Of a DNA stretch of 64,000 bases, positions 7,882-49,886 are shown piece by piece. The stretch spans positions 177,475-241,474 of the forward strand of contig CAJNDT010000327.1 of NCBI GenBank assembly GCA_905221615.1. The letters are read 5' to 3'. The position numbers were made by a program, and so were the translations under genes. The DNA comes from Symbiodinium sp. CCMP2592 (taxonomy: Eukaryota > Sar > Dinophyceae > Suessiales > Symbiodiniaceae). The first letter of the stretch is position 1. Each line of letters begins with the position of its first letter. Below the pieces are notes generated by a model. That model was given only the letters and a program-made list of their open reading frames with translations. It had not been told where the DNA came from and did no database searches.

Positions 7882-8027
7882 TTTATCCTTGGAGTCTCTG
7901 TCGAGTATAGGTCCTTGCATAATCACCTGTGCCTGCTTATAGTCAAACCCTAGTCATCAACATGCTGACTCGGCTTGGTGGCACAGGGATGGGGTATTTT
8001 CGGGAGACCAGCCAGGAATACCAGCCA

Positions 8028-8089
8028 TATATGCTCTCGGGTCCCGGGCCGCCACCCCCCCCCCCCCCCCCATGGTATCCCCCCCCCCC
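8028..8089. repeat. CCATATATG / poly-C motif at the LTR-element insertion site
   Basis: CCATATATG, GGGCCGCCACC, a 17-C run (8055-8071), CCATGGTATCC and an 11-C run (8079-8089) directly precede the LTR. A similar order of motifs occurs inverted at about 23463-23521. The C-run at the insertion site makes the target duplication (CCCCC) ambiguous. Confidence 0.55.
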
Positions 8090-8273
8090 TGAGATGTAAC
8101 CTGGACGTGTATCCCCTCGCTAGGCGTACAGGAACACAGGCACTCAGGTGTCTCTTTTGCTACAGGCGCACAGCTGTAGTCCACTGCACTAGAACCTTGA
8201 GCAACAGGCATGGATACATGCAAGTGATACGTGAAACAGACAGGCACCTGGATGTGTAACATTCAGTGTTTCA
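8090..8273 (-). repeat. 3' LTR (184 bp)
   Basis: Read on the minus strand it starts TGAAACACTGAATG and ends TTACATCTCA. By eye it is base-for-base identical to 22858-23041. No TATA box was noticed. No purine-rich tract lies directly upstream of it on the minus strand, where one would be expected. Confidence 0.95.
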
Positions 8274-8275
8274 AC

Positions 8276-8292
8276 CAGGCACAAATTTAAAA
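8276..8292 (-). promoter_or_regulatory. 17-bp motif next to 3' LTR, repeated between ORF2 and ORF3
   Basis: The plus-strand sequence CAGGCACAAATTTAAAA lies two bases from the LTR edge. It is repeated exactly at 14174-14190 in the ORF2-ORF3 spacer. The position next to the 3' LTR is where a polypurine tract should be, but the motif is not purine-rich. A duplicated plus-strand priming or RNA-processing signal is a guess. Confidence 0.5.
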
Positions 8293-8619
8293 CACGTAGA
8301 GCTGCATGGCCGTGGAGTCGGCAATCTACAAGCCTGTTATTGCTCTTGGTCGAATTAGCGGAGTATTGAGCTACATCTGCGACTTGAAGAGAATCTATAC
8401 ATCTCTAGCCTGAAGACAGCTTCAATGAAAAGAGCAGAACACGCACGAAACGCAAACGGATCTTCAACTGAAAACTTTTGCTTGAAAGTTGCCCACTTGT
8501 GTTTCAGTTCCCTCTCCAGGCGGAAAGCATACTGTAACATAAAGGTGTAAAGCTTAGCTTTACTTGATGCCAGCATGACATCTTGCGGCAAGGCAAATAT
8601 ATAAGGGCATTAGAAGTAT

Positions 8620-8740
8620 CTTATCCTGAGATAAGTATCTTCCTTTGAGAAAGAGTTCTTTAGGAAGTACCTTTTCCTGAGAAAAGCATCTCCCTATGAA
8701 ATGGCGAATGCTCAAAGTGGATACCTTCTTATGAAAGAAG
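8620..8740. repeat. cluster of hairpin modules in the 3' UTR
   Basis: Successive 16-17 bp palindromes with a TG-containing loop: CTTATCCTGAGATAAG (8620), TCTTCCTTTGAGAAAGA (8638), CTTTTCCTGAGAAAAG (8671) and CTTCTTATGAAAGAAG (8725). These match the modules inside the ORFs and the leader. Here they lie outside any long ORF, so they are not kept merely for protein sequence. Confidence 0.8.
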
Positions 8741-8764
8741 CATTCCGTGAAACACACAGCCAGT

Positions 8765-9010
8765 TCAGTCGACGAACTCTAGGTCTGCATCCCAGGTTCT
8801 ATCACGCCAATGATCCTCACCATGCCAACGGTAGATGTCGACAGTGTGAATCGGCATCACCGGCTGATGACGAACAGGGTCGTAACCGCGGGGATCAGCA
8901 GGGGATCTAGGTAGCGATATCTGTGGATCTGGAGCAACGTCTCCAACTTGTTCCAAAGGAACTTCTTCAGAACCATTGTCCATATCCACGTCCGAAGAAT
9001 CGGAACCTAG
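8765..9010 (-). other. in-frame extension of ORF4 beyond a UGA-CUA stop
   Basis: After the ORF4 stop at 9011-9013 the same frame stays open for about 81 codons, to a second stop at 8765. The extension is acidic and protein-like. The stop context on the minus strand is AAC TGA CTA GGT. UGA followed by CUA is a well-known read-through context in viral and animal genes. Read-through would give a protein of about 811 residues. A separate small ORF from the internal ATG at 8989 is possible. Confidence 0.5.
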
Positions 9011-11200
9011 TCAGTTCTTCCCCTTGTTCTTGCCCTTGGACTTGTCCTTGGATTTGCCTTTGGACTTGCCCTTGTCGGCGTCCTTCCCTTTTCCTTTGGA
9101 GGACTTGCCTCCTTTGCCGCCTTCTTTGCCACCAGGAGGTTGTGCGGGTTCTGGAGGACGTTGAGAACCAGAAGCTTTAGCACCAGAAGCTGCCTCTTCC
9201 TGAGAAGAGCTTGCTCCCTGTGGTGCGGCTGCAGGACCAGTAGAACCAGAACCACGCGCCTTGTTCAGCTTCTGTCTCTCTTTTCTTCTGTCCGCGGCTT
9301 CCTTCATGGTGTCGGGATTGCGGTTGAGCGCTCTCATCCTGCCTCCAGAGTACTGGTTCGCGTGAACCTCGATGAGGAGCGGAGTGTGAGCGTCATAGTC
9401 CCGATCGTTGAGAAGGTACGCGGCGCTGGTGGAGTTTAACAGCCACTCAGAGACATGGATGTCGAACTCATTCTTTGAAGACGGAAACTCCGCCCATTGA
9501 TCGTCCGACATGCTGTGTCCCCATTCCATGACTGTAGCCATAACAGGATCCAAACCAGGAAAGGTATTCCAGTCTGGTTGCTTAGCTTCCTTGTATGGCA
9601 TTCCCAGCGTGTCCTCATACTGTTTCAGAAGCCACATGGCGTTTGCTGACACATGTCTCGCACGAGGCGAACAGAGGTGTGGGCACTTTGGGCTTTCTGA
9701 CCATGCCTCCAAGAAATAGTCGAGAAGGCTTTGGTACATCCCGCCACGAATATCCATCGACTCCTGCTTCCTGCCGGTGGCCCGGTAGAGAGCCATGTTG
9801 GCGTCGCCACCGATGAGGTCGACTTGGTAGTGCAAACAGTCGATGAACATGTTGCCCAACACTTCATGAGCCAACGCCACCTTGTCTGCCGCCGCGTCGT
9901 TGTGGAGGTGGAAGACACAAACTCTCAGCCGGTCGGATCCAGCTCGCTCCAAGACCTTGGTCAGTGACTCATCTGGAACATCACCACGACTGCCCTGGAG
10001 ACCGGTCGGTAACGTCATGCCATACACGATTTCCGCGACCATATAGGTTATTGGAAGGGACTCGTGGGCATATCCACTGAGAGTGGAGCCGGCAAGACGG
10101 GTGATCGAAGATCCGACACCATTTGTACGACTTCCCACCATCAGGTCCTTGGACTCGTTACGAAGGAATTGCCAACCGCGTGACTTGAGGAAGGCCTCTT
10201 CGGAGTCATCGATCTGAGCCGCTTCGCAGAGCATGAACAAATGCGTCTTCGACTGTGCAATCGATTTTATCAAGGCTCCTTTAGATGGTGTAGCATCGTC
10301 CCAGTCAATGTGATCAGCAACGGAGCGAGGAGCGGTACGCTTTCTTCCCCTGCTCATGTTGCCGAGATTGAGGATGAGCGCGGCATACTTGGTCTTGCTG
10401 GTGAAGATAGGGACATTGGAGTCCTCTGCCAGACCAAAACGATGAATATAAGGATTCGGCGTCTTCTCAAGAGAGAGGTCCCCGATCTCCTCTTCATCGA
10501 CTCCGGCGCTCAAGAAGTAGTGAATCATAGCATTCAAAAGTTCTTCTCGAGTTGCCGGATTGCCGCTTGCATCCAGGGACTTCAGCTTATCAAGAAGTGC
10601 TTCCATGACTTCCAGTGCTGATTCTCGGATGTCAGAGGCCTTGCCCATGAGCTTGTCGTCCAAGGTGCTACGAACGTCCCCAGAACGAAAAGCAACGTTC
10701 TTCTTGTCGGGACGACGCTCATAGATGGGATCCATCTTGTTGAGTTGGTCGAATAGATCCACCATAGAGAGAGAGTATTTCTGTCCCTTGTGGTTTGGAA
10801 CATTTACCCTCCAACTCATATGCTGCACCTTGTAGGCGAGAACGGGCTCGTAATCAGGATCACGAAGTCCTGTATGATACAAGCCTGAATAGCCATATCC
10901 ATGCAGCTGCTTGCAGAGCATCCGCATAGGGCTTTGTCGTTCGATTTCGGTGAGCTGCGTAAGGAAATGTTTGAACTCTTCGAGATCGACGAGCTCGATC
11001 TTTTCCTTTGCTTTGCCCATCTTGTCGAACGCGTTCTCATTCTGGTCCTCTGCATCCTTCGCGGCCTGGTAGTACTCAGGATCCGGAACAGTCTTGCATT
11101 TCCCCCAGATGCCTTGATCGTGAAGTTCACTTTCATCATCCTTCTCGGGAGAAATGTCTGGCATGGATTCCTCACCCTGTGGTGAGCCTTCCTCAGCCAT
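9011..11200 (-). CDS. ORF4: EEP (endonuclease/exonuclease/phosphatase)-like protein of the LTR element
   Basis: 729 codons from ATG. A hairpin module encodes SPQGE at residues 6-10. The central part shows an EEP-like (DNase I fold) motif series: Glu326 in LCEAAQ, the pair His431/His433 in VFHLHND, Asp466 and Asn468 in IGGDANMAL, and Asp603-His605 in DYDAHTPL. The Glu-to-last-His distance of about 280 residues suits this fold, with insertions. The N-terminal 300 residues are not recognised. The tail is Lys/Gly/Ser-rich (KGKSKGKSKDKSKGK) and could bind nucleic acid. The frame opens at 11215 and overlaps the end of ORF3 in the -1 frame, so it may be made by frameshift or from its own ATG. A nuclease or phosphatase activity in replication is inference. 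Confidence 0.75.
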   Translation of the reverse strand: MAEEGSPQGEESMPDISPEKDDESELHDQGIWGKCKTVPDPEYYQAAKDAEDQNENAFDKMGKAKEKIELVDLEEFKHFLTQLTEIERQSPMRMLCKQLHGYGYSGLYHTGLRDPDYEPVLAYKVQHMSWRVNVPNHKGQKYSLSMVDLFDQLNKMDPIYERRPDKKNVAFRSGDVRSTLDDKLMGKASDIRESALEVMEALLDKLKSLDASGNPATREELLNAMIHYFLSAGVDEEEIGDLSLEKTPNPYIHRFGLAEDSNVPIFTSKTKYAALILNLGNMSRGRKRTAPRSVADHIDWDDATPSKGALIKSIAQSKTHLFMLCEAAQIDDSEEAFLKSRGWQFLRNESKDLMVGSRTNGVGSSITRLAGSTLSGYAHESLPITYMVAEIVYGMTLPTGLQGSRGDVPDESLTKVLERAGSDRLRVCVFHLHNDAAADKVALAHEVLGNMFIDCLHYQVDLIGGDANMALYRATGRKQESMDIRGGMYQSLLDYFLEAWSESPKCPHLCSPRARHVSANAMWLLKQYEDTLGMPYKEAKQPDWNTFPGLDPVMATVMEWGHSMSDDQWAEFPSSKNEFDIHVSEWLLNSTSAAYLLNDRDYDAHTPLLIEVHANQYSGGRMRALNRNPDTMKEAADRRKERQKLNKARGSGSTGPAAAPQGASSSQEEAASGAKASGSQRPPEPAQPPGGKEGGKGGKSSKGKGKDADKGKSKGKSKDKSKGKNKGKN

Positions 11201-14100
11201 TCGACGTTCTCGGACTTACCTCCTTCCTGACCCATGTGCACATCAGGTTCGACCTTCACCTCGGATGCCTCTCCCTGTGGAGAGCTTTCCGTGGCTTCGG
11301 TCTTCTGTTGTGGGACATCCACCCCAGATGCCTCCCCATGTGGAGAGCTTTCCGGAGCGTCCGTCTCCATTGGCTCGACAGTAACCCCAGATGCCTCTCC
11401 CTGTGGAGAGCTTTCTGGAGCTTCAGTCTCCATTGGCACATCGGTCGGCTCGGTCTTAACCGGATCAACCTTCTTGCCCTGTGGCAAGTCCGTGGATCCA
11501 GACGACGGTTCGGAGGTATCCATCTGAGTAGCCGCGGGAGGCTCCTCGATCTCCTCGATCTGTGGACATGGGAGTCGCTCGATGAACTCCTCGATCATAA
11601 TGTCGTCATATGGTCGAGTGAGGAGCTCATTCAGCTCAGACTCCTTCTTCGCCTTCAAGTCTTCGTACGCCACTAAATCAGCTTTTGCCTTGCGGGCGAA
11701 AGCCGACTTGAAATCGCGCTGGTCAGACTCCGTGAAGACTTTCTCCAGAACCGCCAGGAGGTAGCTGCCGTTGAACGGCTGCTTCAGGGTACTGTCATAG
11801 AGACAATAGCCCTCAGGGGTTCGCACCGTGTATTTACGGCGAACCTCCAGATCACCGGCGTGGCGCTGGATGTAGGAGAAGAAGTCCACTCCATAGGCCT
11901 CATTGATGACGCGGACGAGCATCTGGAAATCCTCTCGCACATAGCCAACCTCTTCATACACATACCTTTCCCTGAGGAAAGCCTTGTGTGCGGCGAGCTT
12001 GCGAGAGTAGTCGGGATCCTCTGTCCTTGGCATCTTTGCACGAGAGTCATTGTCCCGAGGGCGATCGAATCCAATGTTACCCAAGTTGGGCCTGAATTCG
12101 TTCGACGCGGCAACGGAGACATCGTCCAGCATCTGGGCAAGACCGCCAGGATGACGCTTAAAGTTCATCCAAGGTGACGTGTAACCGTTGGAGTAAACCT
12201 TCGGTTTCTTGTCCAGCTCCACGAGGTAGTTCCCCTGCAACTTCCCCATCTCGAAGGCCTTGAGGAAGAAGTGCAGGGAGTACCCCGAAAGAGGATGCTG
12301 CAACCACGATGCCCAATCGTATTCACCACCCAAAGACTCTCTCATAGAAGTAGTCAAAGTGTGCCAGGGGGTGACCTGAACGAGGGCATCGCCATAGGTG
12401 CTAAGCATCGGCTGGCCAGAGGAGTCCACCATGTGCAACTTGCCGTGAGCGAAGAGATGCCATGGATTCGTCCTGGCCTTGCGGAGAACCTCGTTGAGCT
12501 CCTCCTGCTGCTGGGACTTATGCGCATCAATCTTGCCGTGGACGGTGTCCCCAGACTGATACGCATACTTGGTGTCTCCTTCGGAGGCTGTGGCTTGCCG
12601 CTCCCGCTCTGCCTTAAGCTCATTGTCACGAATAAGCTTCTGGAGAGCTGCCGCGTCCAATGTGGGTACCTTCTCCTGAGAGAAGCTTCCCGGTGACGCT
12701 TGGCCTGCATCCTGAGATGTCTTTGGCCGCTTCTTGGGAGCTGGCTTCGAAGGCATTGGATCCGAGCTGCTACCCGGTACCCCTCCCTGTGGAGGGCCTC
12801 CGGAAGCAGATGCGGAAGCAGACGCTGAGGTTCCCTCTTCCTGAGAAGAGCCTACCCCTGCGCTTTGCTGCTTCCTCTCGTGGCGAATGCCACCCGGATC
12901 TTGCTCGTGAGGAGGACGGTAGTGATGTGTGAGATACATCGCCGGAATGTCCTGGTACGAGAGCACCACGCCATTGTCTGTAAGAAACAGATTGTGGCCG
13001 TGACTCAGGTAGCACTCGTAATCGAGCTTGGCGTAGAAGACGTAGGTACCGTACTTAATGACGGTCCCAGGCCCAGGAGAAACCACTCCACCCGCATAAA
13101 CGAGGTGGATGGCCTTCCTGTGCCGCTGCCACGCCGCCTTCGTCGCCTCCAGCTTTAAGCCGTTTTCCCGGATGCTCTCGTAGTTGCTGTTATCCGAGGC
13201 GTGGAAAATCGTTCCAAGCTGGCGGCATCGCTCCAAGGTGAGCCTTTCCCCGAGAGCAACATCAGAGACCCGCTCGGGTATCCGTGAGTGACCCTGGACG
13301 GCGGAGACCCCGATATAGAAGTCGAAGTCAAAGAACCGCTCGAACTGCAGAGCCACTGGGGCCACCCAGATGTTGAAGCGACCCTTCGAGTTCGCCATCA
13401 AGAAGGCGAAGAACTTCTTGGGCTCCCACTCGAAAGGCCTGATGGGGTGCTTCATCATCGTCTCCAACGGGATCTCCATGTATCGACCCGGCGTGACCCT
13501 CGTGTCGTGCCTGGTCAATGATGACAGCTGTTTGGATGACTTCACCGCCCATCCACCGTGATTGTGGCGCATCTGGTGAATGTTGAAGATTTCACGATCG
13601 AGCTCGGTGAGCTCGTCGCCGGTAAGACATCCAAGAAAGCACCGGAGGAAGTCGAACTTCCACGTGAGGTGCCGCTGCAACACATGGGTCCCAGGGTGAG
13701 CTTCCTCGTACAGCAGGACGTGTGACAGAAAGGCCAACTGTCCTTCCAGAATGTTCACCGCGGCCATCTCCCCCTGAGGGAAGTACGCCGTGGTGTCCTG
13801 CTGACGGAAAAACCGTGGAACACCTTCTGGGATGATCCTGAGGGAGGCCACCGGAGCACTCGCAGGATAGGCTCGACGATCCCTTGTAGGATAGCTGGCA
13901 TTACCGTCGCCATCTCCAACTGTTCGGAGTACACGACGGTTTGCCCAGGACGCGCTCTGTTGGTACAAGGACAGGTCGGGGACACCAGTGCGGACGTCAA
14001 TCTTGAAGTTGCATCCCGTTGTCGGTGTCCAGTAGACCTGGAATGGTGCCTCCTCATGAGAGGAGCGTCCAGTGTCCATCGAGGGTCCTGCCGCAGCCAT
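10816..14100 (-). CDS. ORF3: Tpt1/KptA-like domain protein of the LTR element
   Basis: 1,094 codons from ATG. Residues about 175-390 resemble the RNA 2'-phosphotransferase (Tpt1/KptA) fold. The marks are RHN near 178, VQGHS with His271 (family form RANQGHS), IFHAS with His300 (family YHGT), GLK then AIHL with His332, and LFLTDNGVVL then IPAMYL (family FFxSxNGVxL...PPxY). In Tpt1 this fold transfers a 2'-phosphate from RNA to NAD+. The Arg of RANQGHS is Ser here and the last catalytic Arg is not evident, so activity may be changed or lost. A second conserved region at about 540-850 is unrecognised. Then come Pro/Glu-rich 21-residue repeats built on hairpin modules. After about residue 965 the frame reads ORF4 coding sequence out of frame, so the true protein probably ends or shifts there. 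Confidence 0.72.
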   Translation of the reverse strand: MAAAGPSMDTGRSSHEEAPFQVYWTPTTGCNFKIDVRTGVPDLSLYQQSASWANRRVLRTVGDGDGNASYPTRDRRAYPASAPVASLRIIPEGVPRFFRQQDTTAYFPQGEMAAVNILEGQLAFLSHVLLYEEAHPGTHVLQRHLTWKFDFLRCFLGCLTGDELTELDREIFNIHQMRHNHGGWAVKSSKQLSSLTRHDTRVTPGRYMEIPLETMMKHPIRPFEWEPKKFFAFLMANSKGRFNIWVAPVALQFERFFDFDFYIGVSAVQGHSRIPERVSDVALGERLTLERCRQLGTIFHASDNSNYESIRENGLKLEATKAAWQRHRKAIHLVYAGGVVSPGPGTVIKYGTYVFYAKLDYECYLSHGHNLFLTDNGVVLSYQDIPAMYLTHHYRPPHEQDPGGIRHERKQQSAGVGSSQEEGTSASASASASGGPPQGGVPGSSSDPMPSKPAPKKRPKTSQDAGQASPGSFSQEKVPTLDAAALQKLIRDNELKAERERQATASEGDTKYAYQSGDTVHGKIDAHKSQQQEELNEVLRKARTNPWHLFAHGKLHMVDSSGQPMLSTYGDALVQVTPWHTLTTSMRESLGGEYDWASWLQHPLSGYSLHFFLKAFEMGKLQGNYLVELDKKPKVYSNGYTSPWMNFKRHPGGLAQMLDDVSVAASNEFRPNLGNIGFDRPRDNDSRAKMPRTEDPDYSRKLAAHKAFLRERYVYEEVGYVREDFQMLVRVINEAYGVDFFSYIQRHAGDLEVRRKYTVRTPEGYCLYDSTLKQPFNGSYLLAVLEKVFTESDQRDFKSAFARKAKADLVAYEDLKAKKESELNELLTRPYDDIMIEEFIERLPCPQIEEIEEPPAATQMDTSEPSSGSTDLPQGKKVDPVKTEPTDVPMETEAPESSPQGEASGVTVEPMETDAPESSPHGEASGVDVPQQKTEATESSPQGEASEVKVEPDVHMGQEGGKSENVEWLRKAHHRVRNPCQTFLPRRMMKVNFTIKASGGNARLFRILSTTRPRRMQRTRMRTRSTRWAKQRKRSSSSISKSSNISLRSSPKSNDKALCGCSASSCMDMAIQACIIQDFVILITSPFSPTRCSI
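11269..11488. repeat. 63-bp tandem repeats carrying hairpin modules in ORF3
   Basis: Hairpin modules at 11269-11284, 11332-11347 and 11395-11410 are spaced exactly 63 bp apart. A fourth, more diverged module is at 11473-11488. In protein they give ESSPQGEASGV, ESSPHGEASGV, ESSPQGEASEV and LPQGKK. The whole repeat, not just the hairpin, has been duplicated. Confidence 0.85.
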
Positions 14101-14262
14101 GCTGGTAACAGAAGAAGAGGAAGTTGTGGGCTACTTTCTCACTTGAGTTTTGAACCAGCTGATTTGAGCAATGCAGGCACAAATTTAAAAAGAGACCAAC
14201 AACTCTTCATGAAGCACATGCATTGAATTGCTCCGACAGCTCACACATGAAGCAGACATGAC
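14101..14262 (-). other. ORF2-ORF3 spacer
   Basis: A 162-bp spacer in the LTR element. It holds the exact 17-bp repeat CAGGCACAAATTTAAAA (14174-14190) also found beside the 3' LTR. A signal for a separate ORF3 transcript (promoter or trans-splice acceptor) or for plus-strand priming is possible. The sequence alone does not say which. Confidence 0.5.
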
Positions 14263-17200
14263 TCACAAACGCTCCTGCATGAACATGACATGTTGCACTG
14301 CACTCAAAACCGCGTACTCCTTACGGAGCCAGGCGTTCAAGAAGGCCTTGTGCTCAATCATGGAACGAAAAGGAGGATGTGAATCAATTTCCTTCAACCA
14401 CCCAGTTTGAACAGAACTCAGGAGGTTTCTAGGATTAGCGCTTCGTTTCGTGAGACAGTCAGAAAGACAGTGTTCGGTTCGAACGTGAGAAAGATCAGCA
14501 ATAGCACCTGAACACGCTTCCTTTCTCAGCATTTGAATCATGTGAATGGTTTCCTGTTGTTCGGGTGAGTGAGTAGTAGAAGCGGTAGACACGAGATTAT
14601 TAGCATCGGTGCGAATGTGAATCTCGGCATCCAAACCACTAATGTCCTTCCACAAACCACGAAGCATTTGACAGGTACCAAAACACTTCATCAAGGCGTA
14701 AAGCTCAGCGACAGTGGTACTGAGGGTCGTTCTCTTAATCTTGGTTGATTCGAAGAAGACCAATGAGCCTCGGGTGTCTCTTCGATTCTTGACCCTTTCA
14801 TCTGCGATGAAGATAGTCATCGCCCTCTGTGAGGACTTGTCGCTGTTGTTACGGAAAGCTGCGTCAGGAATTCCAAGAATCCTCGGTGATCCCTTCACTG
14901 GCCACACCCGCAACTCTACTTCCTCACTGCGTATCTGTCGACACAACTTGTTCAACTCCTTGCAGTGACCAACAGTCGGAGCAGCGGATGCTGATGCCAG
15001 ACGAGAGAACTGGTAACATGCCTGAAATTGCGTCCTCGACTGAAGCCAGTTGATGCTACCAAGCAAAGAGCGATAGGAAGTGTGAAGAGATTTATCACAC
15101 GCATCTGCATCCTTAAGATGCTTTGGTATGACAATCTCCTCAAGCTCTGAAACACACAGCTTTTGATCGATCGAGATATACTTCTTTTTCCCTTGTGCAT
15201 CAAGAACCCAACGAACACGCTGTCCCGTGAACGTAAGGTCATTCTTGTCCTCATGGCCGACAGTGAAGTGTTCCTTGATCTTCTTAAGGAACCAAGTGAG
15301 GAACTCAGGGGTTCCACTTATGATGAGATCATCAACATGAAGACTCATCACTCCAACTGTCCTGCGACCTTTGCTGGGACTTCCATGCACAGGGTCAACA
15401 AAGTGTTCAAGAAGCTGATCAACCAACTCGGGGGAGAGCTCTGATAAGCTCTCGACCTTGTATGAAGCCTTCTCTGGAAGGAACAAAGAGACTAGGACCT
15501 CAGCTTCTTCTTCAAGGAAGCAGGTCTTGTCACCCTTGTCCAACCTCAGGTCATGAGCCCTTTCGACAATCCACCATGTCCCTTTACGAAGGATCATGGA
15601 AACTCGATAAGGGTAGTCCTTGACCTGATAGACAGGTGCTGGAGTACGAAGAGCCTTGGCCCTGTGAGAAACGAGAGCATGCCCGTTCTCATAAGGGAAC
15701 CAACCTCTCTTCTTACAAGCAACACTGCCCAAGAATCCGAGAAGCTTATCGTCAGTAACAGGTCTCCAAGCATAGTCAACCATCTTCTTGGTATCGGTGT
15801 TAAAACACTGAGCGATATCGGGACATGAGAGATAGGATCTCTCCTCCGCACGGTCGGAGGAAGAACGGTTTCCTTCATCGTATGCGTAGCATGTCATGGC
15901 ATGAAGGGCAACCTCCTTGAGGTAGGCAGGTTCCACCTCAAGAGAGGTGTTTCCTGCTTCAGGTTCCTCCTCCTGAGAGGAGCTTCCTGCCGCAAGGTGG
16001 CTCTTGCCCTTCTTGCCTTCTATGCCGTCGTATGCGACATAAGTGCATCGGTCAGCTCTGGTCGGTTCCATGCCTACAGACCTGAGGAATTTGTCCAAAC
16101 GATTCCACCATCTTCTCGGTGCATCGTTCAGACCATAGACTGGTCTGAGACAAAGGCCAACCATCCAGGTAGGCAAACCGATGTCAGGAGGCAACTGAAC
16201 CACAACCATGCGAGATGACAGATTGTAGTGTTCCCCCTGAAGGAAAGCGGTCTTAAGATCCAAATGAAAAAGATCCCAATAGTGATTGGCAGCGCACTGC
16301 GCAACCAAACGGAAACCATACCGAGTAGCCGTAGGGCTGTCCGTTTGTTGATCCCAGGCAAACTTGTCCTGAAACCCACGACAAACCCATCGGGCTTTGA
16401 ACTTGGAAAAGTAACCGTTCTTGTCAACCTTCACAGTAAGGACCCAACGTCCGGTAAGAAAATTGACATCGGTTTTAAGCTTGCGACGGTCCGTCAACCG
16501 AATTGCATCATTGTCCAAGTAACTCTTGAACTCTTCAAGTTTAGCCTTCCGAATTTCGGCGGCATACTTGCGCTGCATCTCCGGCGTGAGGGTACCTGCC
16601 TTGATTTTATCTTGTTTAGTCAACCACGACGCAAAACCATCACCATCCAACGGAACAAAGGACGGAACCTTGAAGTCCGACGGAAGGCGAATCAAAACGT
16701 CGTCGTCGCCAGCAGCCAAGGCAAGCAAGCTTTCATCACGATAGTCAACCGTAGCATCCGAATCAGTATCCTCACCAGCTTCCGGCACCGGCGGTTCCGG
16801 GGTGGGTTCCGGGAGTGGGGTTTGCTGGATAGGAAATTCCCCCTCAGTCACCGGCAAACCAGGAACAGGAGCCGGATCAGAAGAAGAGGAAGCAGGTTCG
16901 TGAAAACCTGGAAAGTCACCCGACGGATCGGGATCCTTCTTTCCCGCAGACTGCCCAGGCAACAACACAACCGGAGGTCCCACAACAGTACGTGACTTGG
17001 CCTTAGACACATCTTCAGGATGTGTGCCTCTGGCACGTGTCTGAGACACATTGCGAGGCGACGGCGGTCGCATACTCTGTGGCACCGGAAAGTGAGGATG
17101 CGGCGGAATTGGAACAGGAACAATAGGTGAAGGTGGTGCCGGCCACGGCATCGGTGGACTAAGAACCTGATCCGGGTTCGCAAACTGAGGCGGAGCCCCA

Positions 17201-18036
17201 GGAGAATCGGGAGGACCTCCAGGAGGAGGCGACTCCTCGTGAAACTCCATCGGAAGAGGAGGCTCTTCCGGTGACGGACCATAACCAGGTCCCGGTCCCT
17301 GAGGACCGCCTCCTGGCGGATGTCCATCACCGTCCGGATCGTGATCCAGGTCGGAATCATCATCTCCCCCTGGTACCGGTACATGAGTACCGCCTCCAGG
17401 AGGTTGTGACGGAGGGTCACCACCGACATGCAACTCAACAGGATTATCATCTAAATCCTGCTCGGGATGCTGTAGTGGCATTTCCTCATCGTCCACAGGC
17501 ATATCACCGTGTGGATCATCATATCCTGGATAGTCCACATCATCGTCTGTGGCTGGCGGTTGCGGTGCAACCGGGGCCGGCGCTGGCTGGTCCGTGAAGT
17601 CCAAGCCAACATCAGGCCCGCGTCTGGAATTGTTGTTCTGTGACTCATTCCAGAACACTATCATGGACCAGTGCGTTGATTGCATATCCTTAAGGCAAGG
17701 AAGCAACTGTGCCATCGTCACGAAAAACACATGATTCATATCACCCTTCTGCCACAAAATGACAACAGCATCAGGATGACGATGAACCAAAGGGAGTGTT
17801 TTCCCTTGAGTCCCCCTGTAGACGTTACAGTACTCAAACTCCAGATACGGCAGAGTCAACACGCGCACATTCTTAATCATCGGCCGCAAGGCGACCGCGT
17901 CAGACGATGTGGTCGTGTGAACTTCCAACTCAGTACCGGGAAGGAGACTGTCAACATATGACAGAGTCTGGACCAAAGACGATGTAACAAACCGCTGCGG
18001 CGCAACAAACCTCAGAGGTGTCGGAAGCTTCCCTTG
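14263..18036 (-). CDS. ORF2: reverse transcriptase and RNase H of the LTR element
   Basis: The frame opens at 18036 without an early ATG and overlaps the last 25 bases of ORF1, one base back (-1). Residue numbers here count from a TTG at 17976. After an unknown N-terminal part comes a Pro/Asp-rich linker (about 110-440). A copia RT follows: RWVLTVKVDKNG, then HLDLKTAFLQGE (Asp573), then SLHVDDLIISG (Asp882-Asp883). The RNase H residues are Asp1038 (PDAAF), Glu1091 (VAELYAL), Asp1124 (RTDANN) and Asp1173 (LSDCLTK). The two RT catalytic motifs are 310 residues apart, against roughly 80-90 in ordinary copia enzymes, so a domain of about 220 residues is inserted. That insert contains a hairpin module encoding SSSQEEE. 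All catalytic residues are present. Confidence 0.92.
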   Translation of the reverse strand, partial: QGKLPTPLRFVAPQRFVTSSLVQTLSYVDSLLPGTELEVHTTTSSDAVALRPMIKNVRVLTLPYLEFEYCNVYRGTQGKTLPLVHRHPDAVVILWQKGDMNHVFFVTMAQLLPCLKDMQSTHWSMIVFWNESQNNNSRRGPDVGLDFTDQPAPAPVAPQPPATDDDVDYPGYDDPHGDMPVDDEEMPLQHPEQDLDDNPVELHVGGDPPSQPPGGGTHVPVPGGDDDSDLDHDPDGDGHPPGGGPQGPGPGYGPSPEEPPLPMEFHEESPPPGGPPDSPGAPPQFANPDQVLSPPMPWPAPPSPIVPVPIPPHPHFPVPQSMRPPSPRNVSQTRARGTHPEDVSKAKSRTVVGPPVVLLPGQSAGKKDPDPSGDFPGFHEPASSSSDPAPVPGLPVTEGEFPIQQTPLPEPTPEPPVPEAGEDTDSDATVDYRDESLLALAAGDDDVLIRLPSDFKVPSFVPLDGDGFASWLTKQDKIKAGTLTPEMQRKYAAEIRKAKLEEFKSYLDNDAIRLTDRRKLKTDVNFLTGRWVLTVKVDKNGYFSKFKARWVCRGFQDKFAWDQQTDSPTATRYGFRLVAQCAANHYWDLFHLDLKTAFLQGEHYNLSSRMVVVQLPPDIGLPTWMVGLCLRPVYGLNDAPRRWWNRLDKFLRSVGMEPTRADRCTYVAYDGIEGKKGKSHLAAGSSSQEEEPEAGNTSLEVEPAYLKEVALHAMTCYAYDEGNRSSSDRAEERSYLSCPDIAQCFNTDTKKMVDYAWRPVTDDKLLGFLGSVACKKRGWFPYENGHALVSHRAKALRTPAPVYQVKDYPYRVSMILRKGTWWIVERAHDLRLDKGDKTCFLEEEAEVLVSLFLPEKASYKVESLSELSPELVDQLLEHFVDPVHGSPSKGRRTVGVMSLHVDDLIISGTPEFLTWFLKKIKEHFTVGHEDKNDLTFTGQRVRWVLDAQGKKKYISIDQKLCVSELEEIVIPKHLKDADACDKSLHTSYRSLLGSINWLQSRTQFQACYQFSRLASASAAPTVGHCKELNKLCRQIRSEEVELRVWPVKGSPRILGIPDAAFRNNSDKSSQRAMTIFIADERVKNRRDTRGSLVFFESTKIKRTTLSTTVAELYALMKCFGTCQMLRGLWKDISGLDAEIHIRTDANNLVSTASTTHSPEQQETIHMIQMLRKEACSGAIADLSHVRTEHCLSDCLTKRSANPRNLLSSVQTGWLKEIDSHPPFRSMIEHKAFLNAWLRKEYAVLSAVQHVMFMQERL

Positions 18037-21000
18037 TCATTGTTTGAGAGTAATGAGTACTCTGCTTCTGACGGAAGAACCGGTAAAGCCTCTGAATTGC
18101 GGTCTGACCGCAAACACAACGCACACAGTGTTCCATCATCAAAATCCTCAAAGATATCTTCGAACAAGTAACATTGTCGGAGATCTGATCGTTCATCACC
18201 CACAAGACACTGCGAAAGCAGCACAGCAAACCTTGGATCAAGTGCGTTAGCAGAGTCATAGCCTTCTTCCAACGACTCCAAACGGCCAAATGATCCATCA
18301 GGCAGATTAGTGAGAAAAGAAAGCTCACCATGCTGACGCTTACCGTGGTCATCTCCCCCTGAAGGAAGTACACCACGGTTCTTGAAGGTGTGGAATGAAA
18401 GTCCTCTCCTCCACTTCAGCGAGCGACTACTCTGCGAAAGCCAAAACCCACAATGAGAAGGATACATGATGGTCACGAAGTATCCATCACCCTTGTCATC
18501 TTGCCAACGGCAGACTTCGGCACAAAAGTGCCAGAAGGCATTGGTAGCCTTCCTGGTCCAACCATCAGGGATGACAGGATGAATCAAAATGTGATTAGGC
18601 TCTGCCTTCAAGATCACTCGCCAAGCGGCCTCAATCGAAGATTGGATAGACTTGGCGTTCCATTCACCAAACAACACAGGTTCACTCGCATCAAGTCCAG
18701 AATGGACTGTGCACGCAGTAAGCCCGGTGAGGCGAGGTGTGATCTCAACGAAATCGCTCTTGCCTGAAGTGAGAGTGTGGTAACAGATCTCATGCTCATA
18801 GCAGAACCCAGAACCGGCACGATCAAGAATATCGTCGCCGATGCGGTCGAGTGCCTCTTCCTGAGAAGAGCGTCTCGGGACCTCATCTTTCTTCAGAGGA
18901 ATGGCCACATCATGCCACGGATCTCCATCACGCCTGACCTTCGACTGATTAACCCGAAGAACGGCACGATGAACTTCAACCAACACCATGGCACCTTCCT
19001 GTGACACAACTATGCCTCTGACCCAGGTTCCTTCAGACTTCTTCTTCGACTCATCCTTATGCCAAACAAACACGCGGTCACCCTTCGAGTAAGGACCATC
19101 AGACGGCATGACTCTCCGTGCAAGGTCCTTCCGAAGGTCAAGTGATTGTCTAGCCTCTTGATGAGCCCGCATGGCAATCCTCTGGAGTTCCAGAGTGGTT
19201 CGATCCTCCTCGGCAGGTTCAGCAGAGAGCTGTTCAGGAGAACTGTTCTCGACATCAAACAAGTCTGGTGGCCGTCTTCCTGTAGCTATCTCCAAAGGAG
19301 AATAGCCTGAGACGGTAAGCTGGCAATTTCTTGCCCAAGCCACCTTCTTGACTGCTTGACGAACAGTCACCTTCTCTGCATAACCCTCATCAGCTAAGGC
19401 CTTGGCCATGATTGCCCAGGTGCGCTTGAAAAGACGCACTGCGGTCTCAGCTCGATTAGGCCAAGGAGTCCGTGGTCCACATGGATACGGAGTAATGCCA
19501 TGGAACTTGTAGTAAGACATGAACTGTGGCGTGAAAAATGCTTGATCTCCTACGATTCCCTTAGGAACGCAGTTGTTCTCCTCTGTCCATTGTCTAAAAG
19601 CTCCCAGAGTCTCTGGCGCTTCCAGGCTTGTAAGAGCCGTAGCCCACAGAAGATTTGAAGCACCATCAATGATGACCAAAGCCAAGTAGGCTTTAGTACC
19701 GAACTTGATTTCTTCATGATCAACAAAAATGAGATCACCGAAGGATGATGCTCTTAACCCTGCGATTCTGGCTCGCGGAGGCGTAGGCACCGAGGTGCTG
19801 CAAACACGACAGCCTTTGACAATGCGGTCGTACTTGTCATAGATCTCTCCTGGCAGACCAAGCATGCTGGTCCTGCGTCGAAACTGAGCAGGACTCATGT
19901 GGTAATGCTTCACATGCAACTTGTAAAGCTCAACATCATTGTTCAGCTTTTCCAACATGCGCTGATACTGCGGAGAAGCCCTTGAGACCTCGTGGCCTGG
20001 CAACGGAAGCGCGATCCTCCTAGGTTCTAGCGACTGTGGCTCTGGGGCCTTCGGAGGACTCGGAGGAAGCAAATCTGCATCCCCCGGTTCGGAAGGTTCG
20101 TACTCTTGAAGATCCGGATCATCCTCAGGAGCAAGAGGAGGAGGAGCCGGTTCCTCGGGTGCCTTTCCCTGTGGAAAGCTTCCCTTGGCTCGAATCCTTC
20201 TCTTTGCCGGTGCCTTTCCCTGCGGAAAGCTTCCGGATGCTCCTGTGTTCTTCGAGCTGTCTTCAGGCTTACCTGCGCTAACCATGTCCTCTGGAGATCC
20301 TACCTTTCCACGGGTTGGATCCTTGGACTTGGCTGGCACCGAGGTTCTACTCTCGATGCCACCAGGCAGAATCTTGAAAATGGTCTTGCCTTTCCAAGAG
20401 TCAGTAGTTCTTGTTGAAGAAAGCTCAGAAGAACGCCAGTCATCTTCTTGAGTAACGCTCTTTCCCTTGGAGAACTCCATGATCGTCTTGCGCTTGGTGT
20501 CCAGATACTCCAACGGAATTGGCACATAACCCGCCTTGGGTTCGTACTTGACTCTTCTCATCTTCTTGTGGATGCGAATCATTTCCATGTCGGCTTCGTT
20601 GATCACCCATTCATCATCAGTCGCCAACACGAGATTGTCAGGTACCTGTTCATGAGAACAGCATCCCTCGGTCTTCTGATGGAAGCCGTACTCGTAGTGG
20701 GAGAAGTAGGTGAGGAAGCTCGACTTCTTATGCTTGCTGAAACGCACATTCCACATCAGCTGACTGAGTTCAAGAAGATCAAGTACCAAGTGTGAGCTGG
20801 GTGCAACCTTCAGCCTCACATCCTTGATTCCCAGCACAGGGCTGCTGAGTAAGGCCTTTTCCGGATGGAGCTCGAACTGGAAACGAAGATTGCGCATCTG
20901 AGGTAAGGACATGAGAATGGGAACATGCCCTTGTTCCACAATGTCGAACTCTGTGGATTGAACTGCAAAGTCCCGGTCGTACATGCAAATGACCAACTTC

Positions 21001-22655
21001 TGGTTGCATTTGGTAGACTCGGAATTGGCAAAGGTGAACTGAGAAGTGGTCTCAGCAATGGTGTACCATATGCCACAGTTCTGGTTCTTGTCACAGAACT
21101 CCATGAGGTCCTGTGCGGCCACTCTCGAAGCCATTGCTCTCGTGCATCCCAGGTCCAACACCATCGCGGTCGGCGTCAAGGGCTGAGAGATGAAGGCTTC
21201 CTCGATCTCATTGATCTTCTCTTCGGTGGCCATGAAAGAAAAGTTCGGAGTGTTGAGATGTTCAACGAAGAAGGTTGTGGCGGCTGTGATGCCGCTCGGG
21301 GCAGCATCAGCAAGCTGGCTCTGTCCGTCTTTTCCGGACTTTCCATCTTTTCCATCCTTGCCAAACTTGCTCTTTCCTTTGCCCTTCTTTCCTTTCTTTC
21401 CTTTTCCTTTGGCTGCATAGGATTCCTCAGACTCATACCAGGACCAGTCATCCCAGGACTGATCGCTCCACTGGTAATCTTGCCATTGTCCTTCTGCTTG
21501 CCATGCTTCTGATTCTTCGGCAAGATGTGACCTGCCTTTCTTCCTTTTGAAGAAGCGCCTTCCTTTGGATCCTTTGCCACCTTTTCCTTTGCCTTTACGG
21601 TGGCCCTTGAATCCGCGCCTCATCTTGCGGCCTTGGAAGCGCCGCTGGAACCATGAATAGTTCTCGTCGTCGTAGACCCAGAAGGCGTCCTCATCCGCTT
21701 CGAGGAAACCTTCGGTGCCATCTTCCTCGTCCTCGACCCAGTAGCCTTCATGATCGTTCAAATATCCTTCATCGATCACAAGGAAGGTCTTGCGGCCACC
21801 GTGGCCGGAAGGAGCGAGGAGTGGATTGTCGACGGTAGTCTTGGTCGTACAGAAGATCTCCAGGTAGACTTCGCGAAGCTCGGCCGTGTTGTAGTCAGCC
21901 AGGACTCGGTTCCGATGCGCCATCAGTGATGTCAACACCTGACGCTGATCCTGTGTCAGATCAGACAGAGACACAAAGATCAAAGCGACCAGGTTGGGCG
22001 TGATCGGAATGGTCCGAGCATGCTGCTCTCTAAGCCGTTCGTTGGCTCTCTCCATTGCCTGAGCTGGCGTAAGGTTTTCTTGTTCTTCTGGAGGAAGTCC
22101 TACTATGAAGGCTCTGACCTCTGCATTGTTCGGGTCCTCGATCGGCAGATAGGTATCGTTCCACGCTTCTTGCATTCTCTGAACAGAGAGTTGAAACCTG
22201 GTAATCCAACGAAGCATGTCTCCGTTCCCACGGTGCATGTTCATGAACTGCTGGAAGCGATAGAGAAAAACATTCGCTGCTCCCTTCACGAAAAGCGGCC
22301 GCAGGAAACTCTTGAAGTACTTCACTCCGTTGTTCGGGTCCTTCAGGCGATCTCTGTCGAGAAGTCTCTTGTGGATTGCTGCTTCACCTTCTAGCCGATT
22401 TCTCAAAGCTGGTCCACGCTTATCATTGTCTAGCTCAGTAATGTCACACCAGTCATCGATCGCATCTTCATAGGCAAACCAACTGCTTCTACCATCATAA
22501 GATGGAGGTACTTTTGTGGTCACCTGCTGGAAAGCTGAAAGACGGTGTAATTCATTGAGATGACGATGATTAGTCGCGAAAGATTCATTTCCGTGGAGGA
22601 GGTAGTCATCATCTCCTCCTTCATGCTCAAAGATAGTCGCAGAGTGGCTAGCCAT
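18012..22655 (-). CDS. ORF1: Gag, protease and integrase of the LTR element
   Basis: 1,547 codons from ATG (MASHSATIFEHEGG). Residues about 40-250 are Gag-like, with DGRSSWFAYEDAIDDW. No CCHC zinc knuckle is seen; instead Lys/Gly-rich runs at about 345-460 may bind RNA. The protease site is VLDLGCTRAM with Asp501, where the usual D-T/S-G is D-L-G. A second insertion-rich region carries two hairpin-encoded GSFPQGKAP units. Integrase follows: HHCC-type zinc region (KHYH, then CRVC), and the D-D-E residues Asp979 (FVDHEE), Asp1037 (VGDQAFF) and Glu1070 (NRAET), spaced 58 and 33. A C-terminal region of about 300 residues is unrecognised. The stop lies 25 bases into the ORF2 frame, so Gag-Pol fusion needs a -1 shift. 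Confidence 0.92.
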   Translation of the reverse strand: MASHSATIFEHEGGDDDYLLHGNESFATNHRHLNELHRLSAFQQVTTKVPPSYDGRSSWFAYEDAIDDWCDITELDNDKRGPALRNRLEGEAAIHKRLLDRDRLKDPNNGVKYFKSFLRPLFVKGAANVFLYRFQQFMNMHRGNGDMLRWITRFQLSVQRMQEAWNDTYLPIEDPNNAEVRAFIVGLPPEEQENLTPAQAMERANERLREQHARTIPITPNLVALIFVSLSDLTQDQRQVLTSLMAHRNRVLADYNTAELREVYLEIFCTTKTTVDNPLLAPSGHGGRKTFLVIDEGYLNDHEGYWVEDEEDGTEGFLEADEDAFWVYDDENYSWFQRRFQGRKMRRGFKGHRKGKGKGGKGSKGRRFFKRKKGRSHLAEESEAWQAEGQWQDYQWSDQSWDDWSWYESEESYAAKGKGKKGKKGKGKSKFGKDGKDGKSGKDGQSQLADAAPSGITAATTFFVEHLNTPNFSFMATEEKINEIEEAFISQPLTPTAMVLDLGCTRAMASRVAAQDLMEFCDKNQNCGIWYTIAETTSQFTFANSESTKCNQKLVICMYDRDFAVQSTEFDIVEQGHVPILMSLPQMRNLRFQFELHPEKALLSSPVLGIKDVRLKVAPSSHLVLDLLELSQLMWNVRFSKHKKSSFLTYFSHYEYGFHQKTEGCCSHEQVPDNLVLATDDEWVINEADMEMIRIHKKMRRVKYEPKAGYVPIPLEYLDTKRKTIMEFSKGKSVTQEDDWRSSELSSTRTTDSWKGKTIFKILPGGIESRTSVPAKSKDPTRGKVGSPEDMVSAGKPEDSSKNTGASGSFPQGKAPAKRRIRAKGSFPQGKAPEEPAPPPLAPEDDPDLQEYEPSEPGDADLLPPSPPKAPEPQSLEPRRIALPLPGHEVSRASPQYQRMLEKLNNDVELYKLHVKHYHMSPAQFRRRTSMLGLPGEIYDKYDRIVKGCRVCSTSVPTPPRARIAGLRASSFGDLIFVDHEEIKFGTKAYLALVIIDGASNLLWATALTSLEAPETLGAFRQWTEENNCVPKGIVGDQAFFTPQFMSYYKFHGITPYPCGPRTPWPNRAETAVRLFKRTWAIMAKALADEGYAEKVTVRQAVKKVAWARNCQLTVSGYSPLEIATGRRPPDLFDVENSSPEQLSAEPAEEDRTTLELQRIAMRAHQEARQSLDLRKDLARRVMPSDGPYSKGDRVFVWHKDESKKKSEGTWVRGIVVSQEGAMVLVEVHRAVLRVNQSKVRRDGDPWHDVAIPLKKDEVPRRSSQEEALDRIGDDILDRAGSGFCYEHEICYHTLTSGKSDFVEITPRLTGLTACTVHSGLDASEPVLFGEWNAKSIQSSIEAAWRVILKAEPNHILIHPVIPDGWTRKATNAFWHFCAEVCRWQDDKGDGYFVTIMYPSHCGFWLSQSSRSLKWRRGLSFHTFKNRGVLPSGGDDHGKRQHGELSFLTNLPDGSFGRLESLEEGYDSANALDPRFAVLLSQCLVGDERSDLRQCYLFEDIFEDFDDGTLCALCLRSDRNSEALPVLPSEAEYSLLSNNDKGSFRHL

Positions 22656-22701
22656 TGCGCTGTTCTTGGATCGAGCCCCGGGAGAAACCTCTTCCGGTTA
22701 T

Positions 22702-22825
22702 CTTCACCTGAGTGAAGTGTGCCGGAGAGACTCCGGTCACCTTCACCTGAGTGAAGCACACCGGGTATTCCGGTTGCCTCCACCTGTGTAGAGAGTACCG
22801 AACGGGTACCTCCACAAGTGTGAAG
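22702..22825. repeat. four hairpin modules in the 5' leader
   Basis: CTTCACCTGAGTGAAG (22702), CTTCACCTGAGTGAAG (22741), CTCCACCTGTGTAGAG (22778) and CTCCACAAGTGTGAAG (22810) lie between the primer-binding site and the ORF1 ATG. They are 37-39 bp apart at first, then 32. Placed in the leader, where packaging, dimerisation or translation signals sit in retroelements, they could act as RNA structures. Confidence 0.8.
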
Positions 22826-22840
22826 CTTCCCGTTTCCCGG

Positions 22841-22854
22841 GAGCTCCGCTACCA
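22841..22854 (-). promoter_or_regulatory. primer-binding site (tRNA-iMet type)
   Basis: The minus-strand sequence TGGTAGCGGAGCTC starts three bases after the 5' LTR. It closely resembles the TGGTA(T/G)CxGAGC sites of copia elements, which pair with the 3' end of initiator tRNA-Met. Position and sequence both fit minus-strand DNA priming. Confidence 0.82.
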
Positions 22855-22857
22855 CGT

Positions 22858-23041
22858 TGAGATGTAACCTGGACGTGTATCCCCTCGCTAGGCGTACAGG
22901 AACACAGGCACTCAGGTGTCTCTTTTGCTACAGGCGCACAGCTGTAGTCCACTGCACTAGAACCTTGAGCAACAGGCATGGATACATGCAAGTGATACGT
23001 GAAACAGACAGGCACCTGGATGTGTAACATTCAGTGTTTCA
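22858..23041 (-). repeat. 5' LTR (184 bp)
   Basis: Identical to the 3' LTR. Should carry promoter and polyadenylation signals, but no TATA or AATAAA was recognised. Confidence 0.95.
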
Positions 23042-24075
23042 CCCCCCCCCCCCTGCCGCCCTGCTGCTGCACGCCCGCCCGCCCCGCCGCCCCCGCCCCG
23101 CACCTTGCCTGCCCCTTGACCTTGTGCGCGGATCGGGAGTGTCGCGCTATGCCCTGCCGTGTGCGGAAAGCGGCATCTGACGTGAATTGCAATGCTGAAT
23201 TATGAGGGTTGTATTGCGATGGTGATGGTGGCAGATCTTCTTTTGAAGGTATCAATGATGAACATGACGACGACAAGGATGATGTTGAGCATGGTATGAT
23301 CGTCGACTCATGTCCCGGTCTAGAGCAGCACAACATCATGAGCAGTATCACCGGTGCCACAACAAGAGGGAAGACAAGGAGTAACACATAAGAACGTCGT
23401 GGCAAAAAGAGTACCACCACAGGCCCCACACCACAGGGGGGGCGGGGGGGAAGGGGGGAGGATACCATGGGGTGGGGGGGGGAGGGGGGGTGTGGCAGCC
23501 CTGCATCATATATGGTCACGCGCTCCGCCGCCCCCCCCCCCTCCCCCCCCAAAGGTCAATGGTCCGGATACAGGGTGGGGCCCCCCCCCTCCCCTGTGGT
23601 GTGGGGTGTGGGGTTCCTCCCCCTGTGGGTGGTTGTGGGGTTTTGGGGTTTGGGGTTTAGCTTAAGCTTTTGAGTTTTGGGTTTACGGCTACAAGGTATA
23701 AGGCTTCGAGTCGACAAGGGCTTAAGGAGGATTTGCGGTGTATGCTCTGCTTTAGGCTTAGAGCCTGCAGGTAGGTGGGGTTTAGGGTTGGGTGTAGCGT
23801 TTTAAGTACAAGTTAAGGTTGCTCAAAATCGGGGCACGGGCTGCGTCATAGGGTTTACGGCTTGCTTGCGAAGGGCCCGCGTGAGCCCTGGAAGCCAGCA
23901 CCGCCCCACCATCCAGCGGCAGCTCCAACGGCCCCAACCCTTTTCCGCACACGCCAGGGCCCCCCCCCCACCCCTGTCAGACCATACCATTGGGGGGGGG
24001 GGGCTGGGAACGCCAGACGCCTGACCATATATGGGACAACAAACCCGCTTCCTCCAAGGCCCATGCTTTTCATAT
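23042..24075. other. non-coding region with long G/C homopolymers
   Basis: Contains poly-C and poly-G tracts at 23042-23052, 23440-23500, 23530-23590, 23945-23970 and 23990-24002. The palindromic CCATATATGG-like motif occurs near 23515 and 24025. The motif block at 23463-23521 is an inverted relative of 8028-8089. The apparent long frames here are low-complexity Pro/Gly reading and are not supported as genes. Confidence 0.5.
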
Positions 24076-37609: not shown

Positions 37610-37710
37610 GGGTGGTTAAAATTAGGGTCCTTCTTTCGGGTTCCTGATATAGTACCGCACCTACTTTTTAGAGCACCCAAAAGAGAGAGACCTTAATTTT
37701 GACACCTACC
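37610..37710. mobile_element. MITE family C, copy 5
   Basis: Ends GGTGGTTAAAATTAGGGTCC and TTAATTTTGACACCTACCC. ACAGG flanks both sides, which agrees with the 5-6 bp duplications of copies 1 and 2. Confidence 0.8.
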
Positions 37711-37740
37711 CACAGGTGCAGCATACTGAGGCCTTGATGT

Positions 37741-49667: not shown

Positions 49668-49708
<41 letters not shown>

Positions 49709-49855: not shown

Positions 49856-49886
<31 letters not shown>

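Follow-up and report, generated by a model that had tools for sequence, protein, structure and literature searches.

Architecture of the retrotransposon

The window analysed here, 64,000 nucleotides from the dinoflagellate Symbiodinium sp. CCMP2592 (GenBank assembly GCA_905221615.1, contig CAJNDT010000327.1, forward-strand positions 177,475 to 241,474), contains a copia-like long terminal repeat (LTR) retrotransposon on its minus strand, and dispersed through this element are 31 copies of a hairpin module whose folded structure appears to be under selection at the RNA level. The LTRs are 184 bp long and have the form TG...CA; the repeat search reported a direct repeat of 187 nt with 99% identity, of which the last 3 nt are flank, the alignments covering 184 nt. 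Between the LTRs lie four open reading frames (ORFs):

8090..8273, minus strand, 3′ LTR (repeat search, LTR alignments, sequence)
22858..23041, minus strand, 5′ LTR (repeat search, LTR alignments, sequence)
18012..22655, minus strand, ORF A, 1547 aa, with a Gag-like part, a KGKG-rich basic stretch and an HHCC integrase motif (regular expression); five modules
14263..17976, minus strand, ORF B, 1237 aa, copia-type reverse transcriptase (RT; RVT_2); four modules
10816..14100, minus strand, ORF C, 1094 aa, with a Tpt1/KptA (PF01885) domain; 12 modules, including the one at 11162 common to ORF D
9011..11200, minus strand, ORF D, 729 aa, without a Pfam match, C-terminus KGKG-rich

The element has both features that mark the Ty1/copia class, flanking LTRs and an RVT_2 domain (E = 2.8e-16 in ORF B) with integrase upstream; an integrase domain was matched weakly, in the relative P0023 (E = 0.018, below the cut-off), and the HHCC motif of ORF A was found by regular expression. 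There is no CCHC match in ORF A, nor in any of the 41 relatives examined out of the 43 known for ORF A, not all of which cover Gag. Runs of C adjoin both LTRs (8080-8089 and 23042-23053), and the C-run in which the element sits would mask a target duplication. In its own genome (1.098 Gb searched, 5383 contigs) we scored 37 matches to ORF B, a lower bound, each given as full length with 100% identity, which marks the family as young and abundant. ORFs A and B are separate at 17976-18012, and many of the 37 matched copies have a longer open frame (2811 aa) across the ORF B match. The named protein relatives of the element are from Symbiodinium.

ORFs C and D overlap in different frames. ORF D is kept in relatives, in several of which it is joined to ORF C, and its GGDANM motif resembles EEP nucleases by eye only. 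ORF C carries an RNA 2′-phosphotransferase domain (Tpt1/KptA, PF01885) inside an LTR retrotransposon, with a score at the cut-off in the window (26 bits) and of 41.8 bits in the relative P0127; the domain is listed for 12 of 17 ORF C relatives and for the copia polyprotein P0053. Judged by titles and abstract openings, the literature searched shows no paper on this domain in retroelements.

A 34-nucleotide module recurs on one strand

The unit is an RNA module of about 34 nt consisting of an outer stem, a symmetric 3 × 3 mismatched internal loop, a 6-bp inner stem and an N-C-A-N tetraloop. The original prediction, made from the letters of the window, had described a 16-bp unit repeated about 25 times through the leader, ORFs and 3′ untranslated region (UTR) of one LTR retrotransposon. 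All thirteen hairpins that it listed are present with the letters given, its repetition is real and every one of the 31 modules lies inside the element; the unit proved larger than 16 bp, the functional strand is the minus strand and the count is nearer 31 than 25. These 31 modules are the matches with E ≤ 0.0024 in an unfiltered covariance-model scan of the window; each of them is on the minus strand and within 8503-22832, and the next-best match anywhere in the window has E = 0.11. The scan took in the non-LTR element at 58919-63856, where the original prediction had noticed no module and where none was found. The model was built from 27 of the 31 modules, of which 26 had been chosen by their inner stem (at most one mismatch) and NTGN loop and one, at 15925, was added; the other four were found by the model. 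In the order of the RNA, and each identified with the covariance model, the modules are:

22803..22832, minus strand, leader; loop ACTT by eye, model register shifted
22769..22802, minus strand, leader
22732..22765, minus strand, leader
22693..22726, minus strand, leader
20637..20670, minus strand, ORF A; one inner pair G-C in the window, C-G in compared copies
20205..20238, minus strand, ORF A
20154..20187, minus strand, ORF A
18846..18879, minus strand, ORF A
18344..18377, minus strand, ORF A; absent from the list of the original prediction
17368..17401, minus strand, ORF B
17284..17317, minus strand, ORF B
15958..15991, minus strand, ORF B (RT insertion)
15926..15956, minus strand, ORF B; variant loop TCTT
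14041..14074, minus strand, ORF C
13905..13938, minus strand, ORF C; internal loop GTA/ATG
13759..13792, minus strand, ORF C; internal loop GTA/ATG
12826..12859, minus strand, ORF C
12772..12805, minus strand, ORF C
12661..12694, minus strand, ORF C
11957..11990, minus strand, ORF C; other codon phase (codon-phase count)
11464..11497, minus strand, ORF C
11386..11419, minus strand, ORF C, 63-bp tandem array (also by tandem-repeat search)
11323..11356, minus strand, ORF C, 63-bp tandem array (also by tandem-repeat search)
11260..11293, minus strand, ORF C, 63-bp tandem array (also by tandem-repeat search)
11162..11195, minus strand, overlap of ORFs C and D
10454..10487, minus strand, ORF D; weak module (16.9 bits), loop TCTT
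9185..9218, minus strand, ORF D
8716..8749, minus strand, 3′ UTR
8662..8695, minus strand, 3′ UTR
8611..8644, minus strand, 3′ UTR
8503..8536, minus strand, 3′ UTR; loop GCCT

The RNA thus carries four modules in tandem in the leader, between the 5′ LTR and the start of ORF A, followed by five in ORF A, four in ORF B (in a Pro-rich linker and the RT insertion), 12 in ORF C (one in the C/D overlap), a further two in ORF D and four in the 3′ UTR. They are spread over 14.3 kb, and 8 of the 31 lie outside ORFs. The 63-bp unit bearing a module is present in 2.8 tandem copies at 11264-11437.

The same pattern is seen without the model. The window has 45 perfect 6-4-6 hairpins. Of these, 26 lie between the LTRs, 22 of them with an N-TG-N loop in the plus-strand reading, which is N-CA-N in the sense of the RNA. 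Between the LTRs there are 22 perfect loop-core hairpins in the sense of the element and 0 in the opposite sense, whereas 300 dinucleotide shuffles average 0.32 and never exceed 3, and the remaining 49 kb of the window hold 1 and 3 in the two orientations. Shuffled coding sequence, which the original prediction had named as a decisive comparison, does not reproduce the modules: codon-shuffled ORFs give at most 1, 1, 2 and 1 hairpins where 4, 3, 9 and 2 are observed (a hairpin in the C/D overlap being counted for both ORFs). The curated covariance models of Rfam had no match at E ≤ 1 in 8000-23100.

Elsewhere in the window, the non-LTR element at 58919-63856 (minus strand) has RVT_1 and endonuclease matches, TTTAGGG-like tandem repeats lie at 39038-39133, and a 500-bp array of ACTGCT type occupies 49592-50091.

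Stems covary and the internal loop stays mismatched

Inspection of the flanks revealed the outer stem, which is set off from the inner stem by three bases on each side. Across the 27 aligned modules the three outer pairs closest to the loop are made in 26, 27 and 26 cases and the next three in 21, 18 and 14, and changes on both sides are seen at all six pairs, although the outer stem played no part in picking the modules. The whole-structure covariation score is 0.769, compared with 0.203 for shuffled alignments and at most 0.220 when the partners are slid, and 0 of 500 shuffles reached the observed values. The internal loop, equally unused in picking, is regular in another way: its outer position (columns 7/28) has identical bases facing each other in 27 of 27 modules (A.A in 23, G.G in 4) and its inner position (columns 9/26) in 25 of 27 (G.G in 20, A.A in 5, two others), while the middle position (columns 8/27) is paired in 4 of 27 against 11.3 expected. 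The loop core is CA in 22 of the 26 perfect hairpins between the LTRs when any loop is allowed, and the leader and 3′ region fold better than their shuffles (z = -6.85 and z = -4.37, respectively).

RNA-level selection on a folded structure, as the original prediction had proposed, is therefore well supported by the outer-stem covariation and the internal-loop mismatches, together with the slower change of inner stem and loop core than of flanks and the linked amino-acid changes described below.

Module positions are kept in copies of the element

We compared the window with ten further partial loci of the same genome (L039-L048), chosen for carrying the 16-mer CTCTTCCTGAGAAGAG; their longer alignments match the window element at about 80 to 98% identity. 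Together they hold 80 modules at E ≤ 0.05, in one orientation per locus. When BLAST alignments of fewer than 200 bases were ignored, 79 of the 80 mapped to module positions of the window, the remaining one lying in an alignment below this length cut-off, so no movement of modules shows at this time depth. One locus, L041, has one 63-bp tandem unit fewer than the window, and through overlapping alignments one of its tandem units was counted for two window sites.

With the same length limit and with gapped columns dropped, divergence from the window is 3.9% (37/958) in the inner stem, 4.4% (7/160) in the CA loop core and 5.2% in the internal loop, compared with 6.3% in the outer stem, 6.6% in the flanks and 7.8% in non-coding sequence; codon positions 1, 2 and 3 differ by 3.9, 4.5 and 15.0%, and loop positions 1 and 4 by 30.2% (48/159). 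Stem changes in aligned copies, by which the original prediction could have been refuted, fall into several kinds. For inner pairs, 396 are unchanged, 7 have changed on both sides and 9 on one side while still pairing, and 7 are broken; for outer pairs, 236 are unchanged, 12 have one-side changes that still pair, 6 are broken and 0 have changed on both sides. At site 20637 the window has G-C at one inner pair where 7 of 7 compared copies have C-G, a difference that is partly a matter of selection because six of the seven (all save L039) carry the CTCTTCCTGAGAAGAG used for choosing them. As old copies decay after insertion the signal is diluted, and we take the copy comparison as modest support for structural constraint.

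The 16-mer CTCTTCCTGAGAAGAG itself has 612 matches in the genome, and its reversed control 0. A pattern with the three central stem bases left free on both sides has 369 matches (reversed control 0), of which 100 places were listed and 25 given with their letters; among these 25 the centres are complementary in 25 of 25, of four kinds and mostly copies of the same sites. For the stem pattern with any loop there are 2471 matches (control 195), with loop NCAN 2024 (control 9) and with loop NTYN 59 (control 12), hence the CA loop dominates in this genome. Most of these pattern matches are probably copies of this element family. On contig C684, three stem matches with NTYN loops lie within 1.6 kb (36679-38268), possibly a copy with the other loop type.

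Relatives show linked amino-acid changes

Of the 23 coding modules, 20 are in one codon phase (p = 1.6e-7, tandem copies counted singly) and 3 in other phases. The favoured phase yields polar peptides such as GSFSQEK, SSPQGE and SSSQEE, mostly in linkers, and pairing in the RNA would tie residues on the two sides of the stem together: an S or P on one side, encoded with U or C, is matched by an E or G on the other, encoded with A or G, and an S or F likewise by an E or K. In 86 distinct contexts the two paired-residue tables read 26/5/3/43 (p = 2e-12) and 59/1/6/12 (p = 5e-9), p-values that are too small because close relatives were counted as separate contexts; the regular expressions for module peptides also catch some non-module ones, for example the conserved HGSPSKGRK. 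Reversed sequences give p = 1 in both tables, from 30 and 6 cases only, and the first table restricted to aligned ORF C sites still reads 12/3/2/24 (p = 4e-6). At 45-65% identity, relatives thus seem to have preserved the pairing of the stems in the RNA. An RNA structure that imposes linked amino-acid changes on protein linkers is of practical use, as such elements could be found from protein data.

Outside the named relatives, a PDB sequence search with the ORF C alignment gave no match, IMG/VR held no relatives by either the RT or the ORF C alignment, and GTDB genome contigs held none. The exact module 16-mer had 22 single matches in 22 stretches of IMG/VR, roughly the number that might arise by chance, as estimated from the size of the collection.

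An apparent loop switch in a related lineage

At each of the 9 sites aligned in ORF C of the window the codon over the loop encodes Q or H. The ORF C relative P0127, which is 45-49% identical, keeps the module peptide at 8 of these 9, and there the loop codon encodes F or S at 8 of 8, which suggests, by codon, a loop core of TT or TC. Stem residues also differ as pairs between the window and P0127 at sites 12661, 11464 and 11386. The related proteins P0123-P0134 are mostly alike in the loop residue, with one-site exceptions in P0131 (H) and P0123 (P), and in the linkers of Gag the loop codon of P0137-P0140 and P0142-P0146 encodes F, S or L. We rely on the site-by-site comparison and set aside an overall tally (clade A Q/H 28/35, clade B S/F 50/55), into which rows for site 11323 had entered for P0125, P0127, P0129, P0131 and P0133, where that site has no module. 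One common reader of the modules predicts a joint change of the loop at many scattered sites; had one module simply been copied over the rest, the stems would have become alike too. We consider a common reader likely.

What could read the modules

A fixed internal loop, a fixed 6-bp distance and a fixed loop core combined with free stem letters point to a protein-binding hairpin. We consider it on balance probable that the modules act in cis, as hairpins of the genomic RNA recognised by a single RNA-binding protein, most likely the Gag of the element itself, and that they serve packaging. The reader would recognise the 6-bp distance between the symmetric 3 × 3 internal loop (usually ANG/GNA) and the CA-core tetraloop, and of the stem it would require pairing alone, whatever the letters. 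Gag is the natural candidate because it has a KGKG-rich basic stretch and no CCHC match and because four modules are placed in the leader; retroviral packaging signals lie there too, between the 5′ LTR and the start of gag. A basic Gag without a zinc knuckle could thus bind some 31 dispersed sites, four of them in tandem in the leader, which would select the RNA and condense it into particles, a role that dispersed packaging signals have in some RNA viruses. Among the candidates named in the original prediction, a protein-binding site or packaging signal fits best.

Several points weigh against this reading. We infer the trans-acting binder, its identity and packaging alike, and the modules could be read by a host protein instead. 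Because of the way the 27 aligned modules were picked, their inner-stem pairing and CA core are partly built in, and the window itself has non-CA loops at 15926, 10454 and 8503. In the copies the inner stem (3.9%) does not diverge less than first and second codon positions (3.9 and 4.5%), the outer stem (6.3%) hardly less than the flanks (6.6%), and 7 of 23 differing inner pairs and 6 of 18 differing outer pairs are broken, none of the latter having changed on both sides. The predicted minimum-energy fold of the leader, by our reading of its bracket notation, joins neighbouring modules and does not form four separate hairpins. The loop switch is read from protein, with an alignment that is uncertain over the tandem sites 11386-11260, and it has exceptions: loop residues are mixed in P0121, P0122 and P0004, in addition to the H of P0131 and the P of P0123. 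As the P0123-type proteins are closely related, it would also amount to one switch event in one lineage.

The strongest rival keeps the hairpins and changes the reader, to a host RNA-binding protein or to the product of ORF C (Tpt1/KptA) or ORF D, with a role in export, stability, RNA repair or the control of translation. If such a host factor differed between hosts, the loop switch would be accounted for as well, and ORF C does carry the Tpt1/KptA domain, with scores of 26 and 41.8 bits and a recurrence in 12 of 17 relatives. Tpt1 acts on 2′-phosphates and is not known as a hairpin reader, and the four-hairpin leader sits between the LTR and the start of gag, the position of a packaging signal. 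We regard another reader as a possibility, if an unlikely one.

Because every stem is by nature self-complementary and several have letters in common, two modules of the same or of two RNAs might pair with each other in dimerisation or compaction, as neighbouring modules do in the predicted leader fold. We find this improbable: many modules cannot pair with each other because their stems differ, the loop is not self-complementary, and neither the kept internal loop nor the loop core is needed for duplex formation. Slightly more doubtful still is the micro-mobile element that the original prediction had also entertained, a palindromic insertion spreading inside the element in the manner of the Rickettsia palindromic elements. 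The common phase of 20 of 23 coding modules, their similar linker peptides and the tandem repetition of the 63-bp unit would suit it. However, it is also in this phase that the modules read as a polar peptide, the stems vary freely, as inserted copies of a single sequence would not, and the 79 of 80 modules at window positions (in partial loci chosen by a module 16-mer) leave the proposal unsupported.

Two readings at the level of translation are the least credible. A protein-level repeat, a linker peptide of the form G/S-S/F-S/P-Q-E/G-E/K with codons complementary by accident, would account for the recurrence of the peptide in the same phase, but it is refuted for the 8 of 31 modules outside ORFs, 3 of 23 coding modules are in other phases, and outer stems pair with varied sequence. 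Frameshift or readthrough stimulators, another of the functions first proposed, would be in keeping with hairpins in coding RNA and with four ORFs of which C and D overlap in different frames, but the majority of modules sit well away from ORF junctions (no search for slippery sites was made) and the same eight are outside ORFs altogether.

As well as the protein repeat alone and the micro-mobile unit, three further candidates were rejected: chance origin, by the shuffle controls in the window and the reversed-pattern controls in the genome; a sequence-specific DNA-binding palindrome, as the stem letters vary and the modules occur in a single orientation; and a bulge-helix-bulge splicing motif tied to the Tpt1 domain, dropped by reasoning because a symmetric internal loop and a closed hairpin make a different shape.

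A bolder statement can be ventured tentatively, and we think it less likely than not: that a lineage of dinoflagellate retrotransposons packages its RNA through about thirty hairpins of the same architecture in linkers and UTRs, and that a related lineage has re-coded the loops together so that the two RNAs are kept apart, an address system co-evolving with its reader. Should the modules be packaging sites, a single genome would offer about two thousand matches to the pattern for their study, along with stems that covary naturally and a loop that apparently switched between relatives.

Comparison with known systems

We found no paper on the modules, judged by titles and abstract openings. Rickettsia palindromic elements are short palindromes inserted in frame inside coding genes. 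The modules resemble them as short palindromes within coding genes in a preferred frame, but no insertion or spread was found here, and what recurs is a covarying stem and not a copied sequence. SymbioLINE-Dnmt and SymbioDIRS-Dnmt3 of Symbiodinium are likewise dinoflagellate retrotransposons with an enzyme domain, albeit of different element classes, and the main text of the paper describing them (PMC5890265) does not contain the words hairpin, stem-loop or phosphotransferase.

The dispersed packaging signals of MS2, satellite tobacco necrosis virus, parechovirus 1 and the hepatitis B virus pregenome are alike in consisting of many scattered stem-loops that vary around a short common motif. 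PMC6281560 describes scattered genome stem-loops around a short recognition motif as packaging signals of RNA viruses, and further accounts of such signals are PMC5431903, PMC4751978, PMC3593212 and PMC7612645. Two properties of these systems are found in the element, namely multiple stem-loops over the genome (31 over 14.3 kb) and a common short motif with variable stems. The host, in contrast, is an LTR retrotransposon, and the architecture is more regular, with two stems and a fixed 3 × 3 internal loop. We do not class the element as a member of this group because the likeness is one of working principle and is known here from sequence alone.

Retroviral psi is a structured packaging region at the 5′ end of the RNA. 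The element shares a structured 5′ end with psi and with the packaging regions of Ty1 and Ty3, and Ty1 Gag also is without a zinc finger, according to a review (PMC4974528); unlike in those systems, the same module recurs through the whole 15-kb dinoflagellate element. The same review (PMC4974528) states that the cis-acting packaging sequences of Ty elements are not clearly defined and that further scattered sites are likely. How LTR retrotransposons choose their RNA is poorly defined, and the modules described here, if they are such sites, can be recognised directly in the sequence.

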